64,000 nucleotides of DNA, taken from positions 1 through 64,000 of the forward strand of contig NZ_NTMG01000062.1 in NCBI RefSeq assembly GCF_002487355.1, in the 5' to 3' direction. The DNA is from Candidatus Methanoperedens sp. BLZ2 (GTDB lineage: Archaea; Halobacteriota; Methanosarcinia; Methanosarcinales; Methanoperedenaceae). Of this stretch, positions 15,601-53,452 are shown in pieces. Numbering within the stretch: position 1 is the first letter of the stretch; the number at the start of each line of letters is the position of its first letter. Under the pieces are notes generated by a model, which was not told where the DNA came from, ran no database searches, and saw nothing but the letters and a program-made list of their open reading frames with translations. Both the position numbers and the translations under genes were made by a program.

Positions 15601-15735
15601 AAGAAATGTGGATGTGACAAGGCGGGGCTGGCTTGAAAAAAGGATTTGATGAATACAAGGTCAGCGAAAGACTTGACTTTCGTGGGGTCAAGGGGCTAGA
15701 GTAAAGAAGAGGTCTTAACAACCTCCCCCTCCTCA

Positions 15736-15948
15736 TCAAACTGCACGTACAGATTCCCCGTATGCAGCTTTCGTTTGGCTTTTCCCTTTGCAGGAGATGT
15801 GTTCATTCAGCAACGAAGAAAGTGAAACCAGCCCCATTTTTCTCAATTCAGGCTCAGGAAGCGTGTATAAAATAGTGTTCCAGTTACGCTTTTTAGCTTT
15901 AAAGCTCCTCAAGCGTCCCCTTATATAACTATCTAATTCACCGAACAA
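15736..15948 (-). pseudogene. Group II intron maturase C-terminal fragment
   Basis: The frame carries the family's terminal motif (LDSYIRGRLRSFKAKKRNW). Sequence just upstream on the same strand reads EYFKDGTVKTLFGE, confirming a group II intron-encoded protein. It is separated by a frame change from the RT piece. Confidence 0.6.
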
Positions 15949-25879: not shown

Positions 25880-25948
25880 AGACAAATAATAGCTACATTA
25901 AAGTATTTTGGGACCTCCTATTGATATTTAAACACCTAAAGTCGGCTA

Positions 25949-25962
25949 TGAACCATGGTTCA
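25949..25962. repeat. 14-base perfect palindrome
   Basis: TGAACCATGGTTCA is perfectly self-complementary and lies 70 bases after the dapF stop. It may be a protein site or part of the repeat cluster that follows. Confidence 0.35.
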
Positions 25963-25983
25963 AAAATGAACATGAAAAAAACA

Positions 25984-26050
25984 GCGAACTAATACGAACT
26001 GTTACGAACTCCGGTAGCGTGAGTTCGTAACAGTTCGTAAGAGTTAGTTG
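25984..26050. repeat. Phased ACGAAC palindrome, copy 1
   Basis: The left arm has GCGAAC, ACGAAC and ACGAAC exactly 10 bases apart. The right arm mirrors it as GTTCGT units. The core arms at 25994-26011 and 26021-26038 match over 18 bases without a mismatch, around a short loop (GGTAGCGT region). A related element lies at 52621-52696. Confidence 0.75.
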
Positions 26051-26091
26051 TTTATTTTTTTTATACCGGTATGCAAAGAACAATTATCCTG

Positions 26092-26120
26092 AACTTTGCG
26101 CTCTTTGCGTCCTCTGCGGT
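26092..26120. repeat. TTTGCG array, 9-base period
   Basis: CTTTGCGCTCTTTGCGTCCT continues as CTGCGGTG, giving two TTTGCG units and a variant at nine-base spacing. It is the third example of this repeat in the window. Confidence 0.5.
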
Positions 26121-26138
26121 GAGCCATTCGGAAATACT

Positions 26139-28082
26139 TCACACCATAGAACTGAAAATCAATCTTGATACAATAGTCGTAACCGTGAACACCATGATCG
26201 ATATGGGCAGGGTCTGTCCCAGATCGTACATGAATTGAGGCCTGTCATCGCCATACTCGATTCCGCCTGCAAACCTTGTAAGGATCATCACCAGTAAGAT
26301 CATATATATTCCCACGACAAGCACGAAAATATCAGGAGGGACTGTCTGGGTCATCCCCGTTCCTGCTTCTTTCATAAAATCCCCGATATTGTATTCGTCT
26401 GGCAAATTGCTGGTCTCTTTTGAAATATTTTGCAATATCTTCTGGATCACTTCGGAAAGAGCAAGCGTAACTCCTGCTATGAGCGGGGCAAATATAATAG
26501 CCGTTGACCTCATAGTGGAAGTAACATCATACAGCCCCCTCTTGATATTAGCCTCCACCTCCTGTAATTCCTTCAGGTGGTCTGCTAACTTTATGATCGC
26601 CATGCCTGCTGCCTCATGGCTTCTATGTACACTCTCGGTCAGGAGTTTCATCATAGTATGCACCCTGTCCGAATAAATATCCTTGAATGCCCCATATTCT
26701 TCATTGAAAATAGCGCCATGTAATGTGGTCCGCATGCATGTGAGATTTTTTGCAATATCTGCAAAGGATTCGCCGATTTTCGCCCCTTTCATCGTTTCTG
26801 ATGTGTGCGCGAAGGCTTCTTCTGCTGACCGTCCTTCTGAGATCCTTCGGCCAAGGATGAACATGGCATCAGCAAACTCATTCTCGATCTGTTTTATCCC
26901 ATCTCGTATTTTTTTGTAAGGTGTATATAGTCCGAGGCAATATATCGTGATCATCGCAGTTATTGCCCAGATGATCGGGAAAGTGGCTAAAACCAATCCA
27001 GCCATGGCTTCTGTTGATATGATATTGAAAGGATTGCCAAAATAAAGAAGAATATATCCTGAAAAACCCACTGTTGTTCCGATCAGCAACGTAACAGTAA
27101 TTATGATTTTCCTTGTTGATTTGATATTTGAAAGGTCAGGATGTTTATCTGAAATATTCGGAGGTGAAAAAGTGGCAGGCCGCTGGAGTAAAATAAATTC
27201 CGAATATATAAAAGTAAGAAGGGGCAGTCCGATATTGTAGATCAATACAAGGGTTACCGTATCCATCCTTACGCCAACGATGCTTACAGCGGGTATCAAT
27301 GCCACAAGGGCAAGAGGGATCAATATGAAAATAGAGTACAGGACATAAGTCGGGGTTTTAAGTTTAGCCGCAAATGCATCCATCATGGTTTTTGTCCCCT
27401 CAAGAACTATGTCAAGTGATTTGTTAAGGGTCATAATTCTCTGGGCTTCATCCGGTTCGCTTGTAGAACTTTTTACAAGGTGAAGCGAACGTTTGAAATA
27501 TTCGCTGTTCTTACCCCACTGGTTTGCAAAATCGATAAGCGCTTCATCGATATTGCTATATACGCGAATATGGATGTCCCAGATAAGTTTCTTTAAGTCC
27601 CTTGCAAGGGGCCTGAATGAATTGTCAGCTGCAAAAATTATAGCTCTTTCCATGTTGGGAACAAGCTTCATTGACATAACAATATAACTCTGGATTTCCG
27701 GGATATCTCCAAGCGTATGGATTTTTAAGAATTTTGCATGTATCTTGGGATATTCACTCAGGTAAATCATTACAATTATGGGAACAAGCGAGGTAAAAAC
27801 CGCCGCAAAAATTATTGAATTTCGTTCATATGTGGAAATGCTAAATAAAATAATATCAAGGCCAACTAACGAAATGAATAACAAAAGGCCGCCAGTATAG
27901 GAAAGTATGTGGGTTTCCCACGGCTCAAGTTCAAATCCGGAAAAATCTAATGCAGCAAAGAACTCATTACTTGCGGTTTTTTCGCTTTTTTTCCTGTATT
28001 CATCAAGATCCTTCACAAGCCAGCTAAAATGTTTCACGGAAAAACGGCAGGCACGGCAATACAGATTCTGGTTATCATCCAT
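26139..28082 (-). CDS. Archaeal type IV pilus/T2SS membrane platform (FlaJ/TadC-like)
   Basis: The 647-residue protein has two T2SF (GspF-type) cytoplasmic domains, around 150-260 and 400-520, each followed by hydrophobic helices. This is the layout of archaeal FlaJ/PilC-like platform proteins. An N-terminal CRAC motif precedes a long cytoplasmic stretch. It probably anchors the ATPase encoded eight bases upstream and helps assemble pilin-like filaments. No pilin gene or prepilin peptidase is seen nearby, so the filament type (adhesion pilus rather than archaellum) is an inference from the absence of other fla genes. Confidence 0.85.
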   Translation of the reverse strand: MDDNQNLYCRACRFSVKHFSWLVKDLDEYRKKSEKTASNEFFAALDFSGFELEPWETHILSYTGGLLLFISLVGLDIILFSISTYERNSIIFAAVFTSLVPIIVMIYLSEYPKIHAKFLKIHTLGDIPEIQSYIVMSMKLVPNMERAIIFAADNSFRPLARDLKKLIWDIHIRVYSNIDEALIDFANQWGKNSEYFKRSLHLVKSSTSEPDEAQRIMTLNKSLDIVLEGTKTMMDAFAAKLKTPTYVLYSIFILIPLALVALIPAVSIVGVRMDTVTLVLIYNIGLPLLTFIYSEFILLQRPATFSPPNISDKHPDLSNIKSTRKIIITVTLLIGTTVGFSGYILLYFGNPFNIISTEAMAGLVLATFPIIWAITAMITIYCLGLYTPYKKIRDGIKQIENEFADAMFILGRRISEGRSAEEAFAHTSETMKGAKIGESFADIAKNLTCMRTTLHGAIFNEEYGAFKDIYSDRVHTMMKLLTESVHRSHEAAGMAIIKLADHLKELQEVEANIKRGLYDVTSTMRSTAIIFAPLIAGVTLALSEVIQKILQNISKETSNLPDEYNIGDFMKEAGTGMTQTVPPDIFVLVVGIYMILLVMILTRFAGGIEYGDDRPQFMYDLGQTLPISIMVFTVTTIVSRLIFSSMV

Positions 28083-51470: not shown

Positions 51471-52598
51471 ATGACACAATACAAAATCCCTGTAATCCCC
51501 GGTGATGGTATCGGCCCGGAAATAATAAGAGAAGGACGAAAAGTCCTTGAAACTGCGGGTGAAAAATTCGGCTTTGATATTGAATGGATCGAATATCCGC
51601 ATGGAGCCGACCATTATCTTGAAACAGGTGAGCTGATATCCGAAGATACGCTAAAAGATCTTTCAAAATACCAGGCGATCTATTTCGGGTCAATCGGAGA
51701 TGAAAGGGTAAAGCCTGGAATACTTGAAAAAGGAATTCTCCTGAATATCAGGTTCTATTTTGATGAGTATGTAAACCTCCGTCCTGTGAAACTTCTTGAA
51801 GGAGTCTGGACCCCGTTGAAAGATAAAACTGCAAAGGATATTGACTTTGTAGTAGTGCGGGAAAATACCGAAGACTTCTATATCGGAATTGGCGGGCGTG
51901 CCAAAAAAGGGAAGAGCAAGAAAACACTTGAAGTTATAAGGAACATGTATAATGTAAAATTCGGCCTTGATATCACTTCAGATAGTGAAGAAATAGGCTA
52001 CCAGCTTGGTCTTATCAGTAAAGAAGGCACACGCAGGGTGATCCGTTATGCATTTGAGATTGCAAAGAACAGGAATAAACATCTGTCTTCAGTGGATAAG
52101 GCGAATGTATTATCTGATATCTACGGTTTCTGGCGGGAAGAATTCACGTCAATAGCTTCCGGATACCCGCAGGTAAAAACGGATTTCAATTATGTGGATG
52201 CTGTAACCATGTGGTTTGTCAAGAATCCTGAGTTTTTCGATGTAGTTGTTTCACCAAATATGTTCGGTGACATAATAACAGATCTTGGCGCAATGATCCA
52301 GGGAGGTCTTGGACTTGCTCCAGGCGGGAACATTAATCCTGAAGGCACAAGCATGTTCGAACCCATCCATGGCAGCGCGCCAAAATACAAGGGACTGAAC
52401 AAGGTTAATCCAATAGCGACCATCTGGGCAGGGGCGCTGCTTCTTGACCATCTGGGTGAAAAAGAGGCTTCCAGACAGATCGTGCAGGCTATCGAGAAAA
52501 ATATTGTTAACAATAAAATAAAAACATACGATATGGGCGGCTCAAACACGACAACTGATGTCGGGGACGATATTGCGCGATTGCTTAAGGAAATATAA
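51471..52598 (+). CDS. Isocitrate/isopropylmalate dehydrogenase family
   Basis: The 375-residue protein has the beta-decarboxylating dehydrogenase pattern: [43 protein letters not shown] and [29 protein letters not shown] follows. The substrate loop fits 3-isopropylmalate dehydrogenase or a close relative (tartrate or homoisocitrate type) rather than a standard isocitrate dehydrogenase. Leucine synthesis is the most likely pathway, but no other leu genes adjoin it. Confidence 0.85.
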
Positions 52599-52620: not shown

Positions 52621-52696
52621 AAAAACAACGAACTGAAACGAACACGAACGAACTCTGGCGCGTGAGTTCGTATCAGTTCGTATTTGTTCGTTGTTT
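52621..52696. repeat. Phased ACGAAC palindrome, copy 2
   Basis: AAAACAACGAAC at the left end is matched exactly by GTTCGTTGTTTT at the right end. Between them ACGAAC/GTTCGT units recur at about 10 bases on each arm, with GAACTC and GAGTTC at the tip around TGGCGCGT. It lies between the IPMDH-family gene and flpA, and resembles 25984-26050. Confidence 0.75.
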
Positions 52697-52765
52697 TAAA
52701 TTATCAGATGTTCTTTCAAAAGACTTAATGATCGATAAATTTTAAATCAAAAACAACCGCGATAA

Positions 52766-53452
52766 ATGGAAACAATCGAATTAATCGGAACCGGGCTTGA
52801 TAATTCTTTTATTGTTATTTCAGATGGTTCTAAAAGATTAATTACAAAAAATCTTGTTCCCGGAATAAGAGTTTATGATGAAAAACTCATCGATATTGAA
52901 AATGAAGAATATCGCATCTGGGACCCGTTTCGAAGCAAGCTTGCAGCCCTGGTATTAAAAGGTTCACCGATATCGTTAAGGAAAAATAACAGTGTTCTTT
53001 ACCTTGGAGCGGCAAATGGAACGACTGTGAGCCATGTTTCAGATATCGTTTCCGGTGGCATTGTTTTTGCCGTAGAATTCTCGCCACGGGCAATGAAAGA
53101 TCTCATTAATATCAGTGCTTCAAGGATGAACCTTGCACCCATACTGGCAGATGCAAAAAATCCGAAATCATATCAAAATATGGTTCCTGAAGTGGATATT
53201 ATTTATCAGGATGTGGCTCAGAAAGATCAGGCCATGATCGCTATCAGGAATGCCCGGATGTATCTCAAAAAAGATGGTATCCTTGTTTTAATGATAAAGG
53301 CAAGAAGCATTGATTCAACAAGAGATCCAGGGGATGTGGCCGATCTGGAAGTGAAAAAACTGGAAGGAAAGTTTAAAGTAAAAGAATTGATGAATCTTGA
53401 ACCGTATCATTCAGATCATTTTGCGGTAGTGGCGCAAAAAATGAAAGTTTAA
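52766..53452 (+). CDS. flpA: Fibrillarin-like rRNA/tRNA 2'-O-methyltransferase
   Basis: FlpA is the methyltransferase of box C/D RNPs. The 228-residue protein has RIWDPFRSKLAALVLKG, the SAM site LYLGAANGTTVSHVSDIV, VFAVEFSPRAMKDL and the C-terminal region EPYHSDHFAVV. It works with NOP5 (22025) and L7Ae. It precedes serS by 75 bases. Its separation from nop5 is unusual for archaea. Confidence 0.96.
   Translation: METIELIGTGLDNSFIVISDGSKRLITKNLVPGIRVYDEKLIDIENEEYRIWDPFRSKLAALVLKGSPISLRKNNSVLYLGAANGTTVSHVSDIVSGGIVFAVEFSPRAMKDLINISASRMNLAPILADAKNPKSYQNMVPEVDIIYQDVAQKDQAMIAIRNARMYLKKDGILVLMIKARSIDSTRDPGDVADLEVKKLEGKFKVKELMNLEPYHSDHFAVVAQKMKV

Follow-up and report, generated by a model that had tools for sequence, protein, structure and literature searches.

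In REPIN/RAYT systems, intergenic palindromes with two arms are dispersed over the genome, several types occur per genome, each type is found beside its own enzyme gene, and copies without a gene outnumber the genes (PMC3116915). The palindromes found in Candidatus Methanoperedens sp. BLZ2 and its relatives resemble these, as they are also dispersed, consist of two inverted arms, comprise several types that each lie next to an enzyme gene of their own, and occur more often without such a gene than with it. The parts, however, are different. While RAYT is a Y1 transposase of the HUH type, the enzyme here is a predicted PD-(D/E)XK nuclease, and while a REPIN is a single tagged hairpin, the arms here comprise two to four helically phased 6-7-mers. 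In the listed copies, the palindrome ends (AACAACGAAC / GTTCGTTGTT) carry neither a GTAG nor a CGTC tag. Furthermore, repeats linked to the nuclease family GxxExxY span archaea and many bacterial phyla, and no phased inverted flanks were found at the 24 Y1 (PF01797) loci of Methanoperedens. The best reading is that the element would work like REPIN/RAYT with unrelated parts, and it would represent a second, unrelated solution to the same lifestyle.

Other known systems share single features with these elements. The partner gene encodes a full member of the GxxExxY family (TIGR04256/PF13366), but this family is annotated as uncharacterised, and a search of the open-access literature found no link between it and flanking repeats. 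Like MITEs, the palindromes are short, gene-less, multi-copy inverted repeats, but no DDE-type transposase partner was found for the unit bounded by the arms, the arms are internally periodic, and a target site duplication (TSD) was not seen at orthologous sites, which are rearranged or occupied by a different palindrome. The PD-(D/E)XK superfamily serves mobility elsewhere, namely in TnsA and in homing endonucleases such as I-Ssp6803I. In contrast to these, GxxExxY has no DDE partner and no intron or intein host, and its fold is closest to Cas4 and lambda exonuclease. To our knowledge, a lone PD-(D/E)XK domain is no known transposase. A search of the open-access literature, with the repeat sequences included as text, gave no description of an element combining these repeats with GxxExxY. 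Within this literature, GxxExxY is mentioned in two papers only, in one of them in a passage on CRISPR reverse transcriptases, while the other deals with an algal virus genome.

The window, i.e. the whole analysed stretch of 64,000 nucleotides, contains copy 1 and copy 2 of an ACGAAC-family palindrome. Copy 1 is an inverted repeat at 25975-26057 with 37-nt arms, which are 86% complementary and separated by 9 nt (left arm 25975-26011, loop 26012-26020, right arm 26021-26057). Its perfect inner stem, given as 18 bases in the earlier note, was measured as 19 bp (25993-26011 with 26021-26039). The left arm carries the units GCGAAC-TAAT-ACGAAC-TGTT-ACGAAC in a 10-bp phase on the plus strand (25984-26009, unit starts 25984, 25994 and 26004), and the right arm, read on the minus strand, the units ACTAAC-TCTT-ACGAAC-TGTT-ACGAAC (26023-26048). 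The spacing of exactly 10, described before for three GAAC units per arm, was confirmed, whereas GAAC itself is present in only five of the six units, one being mutated to ACTAAC; the first unit reads GCGAAC. For GAAC-N6-GAAC-N6-GAAC, three matches were determined in the window compared to 0.00 expected from shuffles.

Copy 1 is located between convergent genes, dapF (PF01678, 25055-25879) and an ORF at 26139-28082. The "secretion platform gene" named for the other side is a plausible but putative assignment: a Pfam search of this ORF gave no match, and the ORF adjoins the gene of a T2SSE-family ATPase. The flank at 25938-25970 (plus strand, ..TAAAGTCGGCTATGAACC..GGTTC..) is common to other copies. 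Since its outer end is ACCGCAAAG in these copies, copy 1 appears to be nested inside a GCAAAG-type element or repeat; the GCAAAG family is also represented by a half arm (CTTTGCGCTCTTTGCGTCCTCTGCGGTGAG) at 26094-26123 on the minus strand. Copy 2 (52622-52697) lies between the gene of an Iso_dh-family dehydrogenase, ending at 52598, and the fibrillarin gene, starting at 52766.

A search of the window's genome (G000) for (ACGAACN4)3, allowing at most 2 mismatches, resulted in 20 matches at about 14 loci, compared to none for the pattern read backwards. The pattern was present in 33 of 34 genomes of Methanoperedens and two neighbouring genera, the window's own genome counted, but in only 3 of 26 genomes from other families of the same order. 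Further copies, whose absence from this and related genomes was to speak against the earlier note, are therefore present in both. Genomes that lack an intact gene of the ACGAAC nuclease clade described below have ACGAAC palindromes, too (27 vs 13 arms, p=0.08). G000, G020 and G019 each contain numerous palindromes of the CACAGAG type (about 70 bp), and G000 has no intact GxxExxY gene. In Ferrovibrio and Hydrogenedentes (L030, L034, L058, L076), one-sided tandem arrays of 80-115 bp with ACGAAC-type 10-bp units were observed; as tandem arrays on one side, these pattern matches were rejected as palindromes.

ACGAAC half-arms were found beside a gene of 126 aa in G006 and G015. With 127-131 bits compared to cut-offs of 35 and 22, its product is a full member of GxxExxY (TIGR04256/PF13366 PDDEXK_3). 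ACGAAC arms on both sides of GxxExxY genes were determined in G003, G005, G006, G013 and G015. In a sample of 53 loci from the genus Methanoperedens and several bacterial phyla, most GxxExxY genes are located between phased repeats on both sides, with the unit types ACGAAC, GCAAAG, CACAGAG, CGCAGAT, CGCGGAT, ACAGGAT, CACGAAG and CACAAAAG. These repeats have a phase of 9-11 bp, and their autocorrelation shows peaks at 9, 10 and 18. The arms lie about 10-60 nt from the start codon of many of the genes, and their orientation relative to the gene is variable. The only GxxExxY gene in the window's own genome is broken (C19:8144-8406) and resembles another clade; a search of this genome for an intact nuclease of the ACGAAC clade found none. 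In G006, G009 and G015, type I restriction-modification genes are grouped with half-arms of the ACGAAC family (L231, L233, L234), and in G006 and G015 a GxxExxY gene lies alongside.

Nine residues are invariant in GxxExxY, including E29, D68, E78-x-K80 and Q92-xxx-Y96, the active-site pattern of Cas4/RecB-type nucleases; the predicted active-site residues are intact. An AlphaFold model (pLDDT 93.8) showed SSO0001 (a Cas4), LHK-Exo and lambda exonuclease as the nearest solved folds, and the fold of this PD-(D/E)XK nuclease is accordingly of the Cas4/lambda-exonuclease type. PADLOC gave weak matches to Cas4 and PDC-M36A. A PHROGs search with GxxExxY and a viral-contig search with two single GxxExxY proteins resulted in no match.

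The association of the gene with phased repeats was compared to control genes. A strict test required a 6-mer with 8-12-bp phasing in one flank and its phased reverse complement in the opposite flank. This test (Fisher p=1e-10) was passed by 26 of 51 GxxExxY loci, by none of 29 PIN and none of 24 Y1-transposase loci, and by 94 of 2502 mismatched pairings, where the genomes of other phyla had been reached via the ACGAAC pattern and the PIN and Y1 genes all came from Methanoperedens. About half of the GxxExxY loci fail the strict test. An inverted alignment of the flanks above the 99% shuffle level was obtained for 22 of 52 GxxExxY loci compared to 0 of 29 PIN-domain loci (p=7e-9) and 5 of 607 mismatched pairs. 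As an independent sample, eight PLSDB plasmid records with GxxExxY were used (Bacteroides, Gemmatirosa, Bernardetia, Sphingomonas, Prevotella, Persicobacter, Fusobacteria and Treponema). Judged by eye, repeats of some kind flank most of these genes, and three records passed the strict test.

In a tree of the 53 GxxExxY proteins, the unit types, whose labels had been assigned by eye before the tree was made, required 18 changes compared to 38 after shuffling. All six ACGAAC-armed loci from Methanoperedens form a single clade (99/99 support), which is joined on long branches by loci of Treponema and Phenylobacterium whose units read CACGAAC (97/83). Pairs from different genomes with 60-80% protein identity have phased 6-mers in common beyond permutation (p=0.0015); below about 60% identity, no k-mer similarity of the arms was detectable. 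The unit type (ACGAAC, GCAAAG, CACAGAG, CGCAGAT, CGCGGAT, ACAGGAT) follows the clade of the nuclease. This match of clade and unit makes the question of recognition directly testable.

Several observations concern mobility. Homology between GxxExxY copies at unrelated sites ends at the arms or within tens of bases of them (L277/L296, L365/L378, L287/L386, L275/L276), and these pairs have no common outer IS. In G015, about 20 near-identical palindrome copies lie inside a MITE-like repeat of about 190 bp (ACGTATAGG...GCCCCCGCAGGGGCTTTCTTGA, e.g. L212-L229), which carries the ACGAAC palindrome, has unrelated outer flanks and is possibly IS200/IS605-like. The palindrome loop was found there in both orientations (CTCCAAGAG / CTCTTGGAG). 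A repeat in G004:C17 contains an ACAGGAT palindrome with a short loop, and the same repeat in G021 and G004:C5 has a GxxExxY gene in this loop. The site of copy 2 is occupied by a CGCGGAT palindrome in G021 and by remnants in G003 and G020. Upstream of a gene that we take to be glyS from its translated start, G000 has a GCAAAG palindrome and G021 a CACAGAG element with a GxxExxY gene. These dispersed copies, the copies inside other mobile elements and the recurrence of the same arms around a nuclease gene at unrelated sites support the mobile repeat that had been offered as one of three options.

The outer repeat that G004 and G021 share around the ACAGGAT palindrome is a TIR element (CATATTTCGCAC.., L381 1028-1723), which in G021 carries an ACAGGAT GxxExxY element. 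The window's own genome holds a clean empty site of this outer repeat (G000:C36 near 16016, L419). The apparent TGAC duplication at this site belongs to the outer TIR element and not to the arms. For the arm-bounded element itself, neither a TSD nor a clean empty site was found at the sites of copy 1, copy 2, L386 and L277. The orthologous sites are rearranged or occupied by another palindrome; the region of copy 1 is absent or rearranged in G020, G003 and G019.

Altogether, we consider it likely that the palindrome is the non-autonomous version of a mobile element, reduced to the repeats. Complete copies of this element would contain a gene for the PD-(D/E)XK nuclease GxxExxY, accompanied by the same arms with their 10-bp phase. 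Points that speak against this reading are the failure to find a TSD or clean empty site for the arm-bounded element, the GxxExxY loci that fail the strict test, the variable orientation of the arms, the way in which the genomes of other phyla and the control genes were chosen, the ACGAAC palindromes in genomes lacking an intact gene of that clade, the loss of k-mer similarity of the arms below about 60% protein identity, and the lone nuclease domain. Repeats of the same build on both sides of GxxExxY genes in archaea and many bacteria point to an unrecognised kind of mobile element, in which we infer a role of the nuclease in mobility. The nuclease would bind neighbouring phased units next to one another, all on the same DNA face, and would cut the arms, perhaps where these are extruded as hairpins in the course of replication. 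Repair of the break could then copy the element into new intergenic places and so spread it, and the gene-less palindromes would have been moved in trans or would be relics. Since an intact ACGAAC-clade nuclease was not found in the window's own genome, the copies there have probably become relics. A wider claim, whose chances are judged to be about even, concerns a whole class of mobile element in archaea and many bacterial phyla. In this class, GxxExxY as a single small PD-(D/E)XK nuclease would recognise helically phased 6-7-mer units and in this way spread its own gene as well as palindromes that lack it. If true, the common dispersed repeats CTTTGCG.., CTCTGTG.., ATCTGCG.., ATCCGCG.. and ATCCTG.. 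would be its non-autonomous relics, with one nuclease clade corresponding to each type. A conserved, uncharacterised nuclease family would in this way be tied to the origin of dispersed phased repeats across prokaryotes, whereby GxxExxY gains a testable function, the reading of phased units, and the repeats gain a possible source.

Other explanations share part of this evidence. The palindromes and GxxExxY genes could be passengers, either hitchhiking in ordinary IS or MITEs or, in the case of the gene, inserted into pre-existing palindromes without moving them. The G015 copies within the MITE-like repeat and the ACAGGAT gene element of G021 within a TIR element are in line with this, but most copies lie outside such elements, and the homology ending near the arms without a common outer IS also argues against it, so that this explanation is unlikely. 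Another of the earlier options, cooperative binding of a protein along a single DNA face, fits the conservation of units at a 9-11-bp phase with varying spacers, and the palindrome remains a putative site of this kind. That the protein is a host regulator or nucleoid protein, with the site used by GxxExxY genes as an operator and its spread being secondary, would agree with the conserved units, free spacers and helical phase as well as with the proximity of the arms to many start codons. Since the intergenic copies show no consistent orientation to their neighbours, arm sequence follows nuclease clade across genomes, and palindrome families replace each other at the same site, a host protein is nevertheless rather improbable. 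Mobilisation as REP/REPIN elements by a Y1 (HUH) RAYT transposase is very improbable. Although the palindromes are dispersed, intergenic and built of two inverted arms, 29 of the 31 genomes in the genus carry Y1 genes and the logic of REPINs is the same (PMC3116915), phased inverted flanks were found at none of the 24 Y1 loci and ACGAAC units near only one (L438); in addition, the ends have no GTAG or CGTC tag, and the arms are tandem phased units instead of one hairpin.

A further explanation is a transcribed hairpin that lies between convergent genes and serves as a bidirectional terminator or as a small RNA. The convergent neighbours of copy 1 and its predicted RNA fold of -45 kcal/mol (z -10.5) are consistent with this possibility. 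However, copy 2 and others are located between co-directional genes or directly before a gene, and the orientation of the copies in the window's own genome to neighbouring genes is not fixed. For 27 non-redundant palindromes, the 4-nt spacers in one arm were matched with those in the other, and shuffled pairings served as the reference. With 50 of 108 matches compared to 42 shuffled (p 0.11) and 44 of 108 compared to 40 (p 0.24), the spacers match no better than chance, i.e. no compensatory pairing between the arms was found. The units are conserved across these palindromes while the spacers vary, a conservation that is partly due to how the palindromes were found. A terminator scan of the palindrome gave 0 calls, and an Rfam gathering search matched no family. 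Although the strand folds well, a maintained RNA hairpin, the remaining option of the earlier note, is not supported, and a transcribed hairpin is hardly probable at all. Elsewhere in the window, at 15695-15772 on the minus strand, a group II intron domain (Rfam RF00029, 42.6 bits) was observed.
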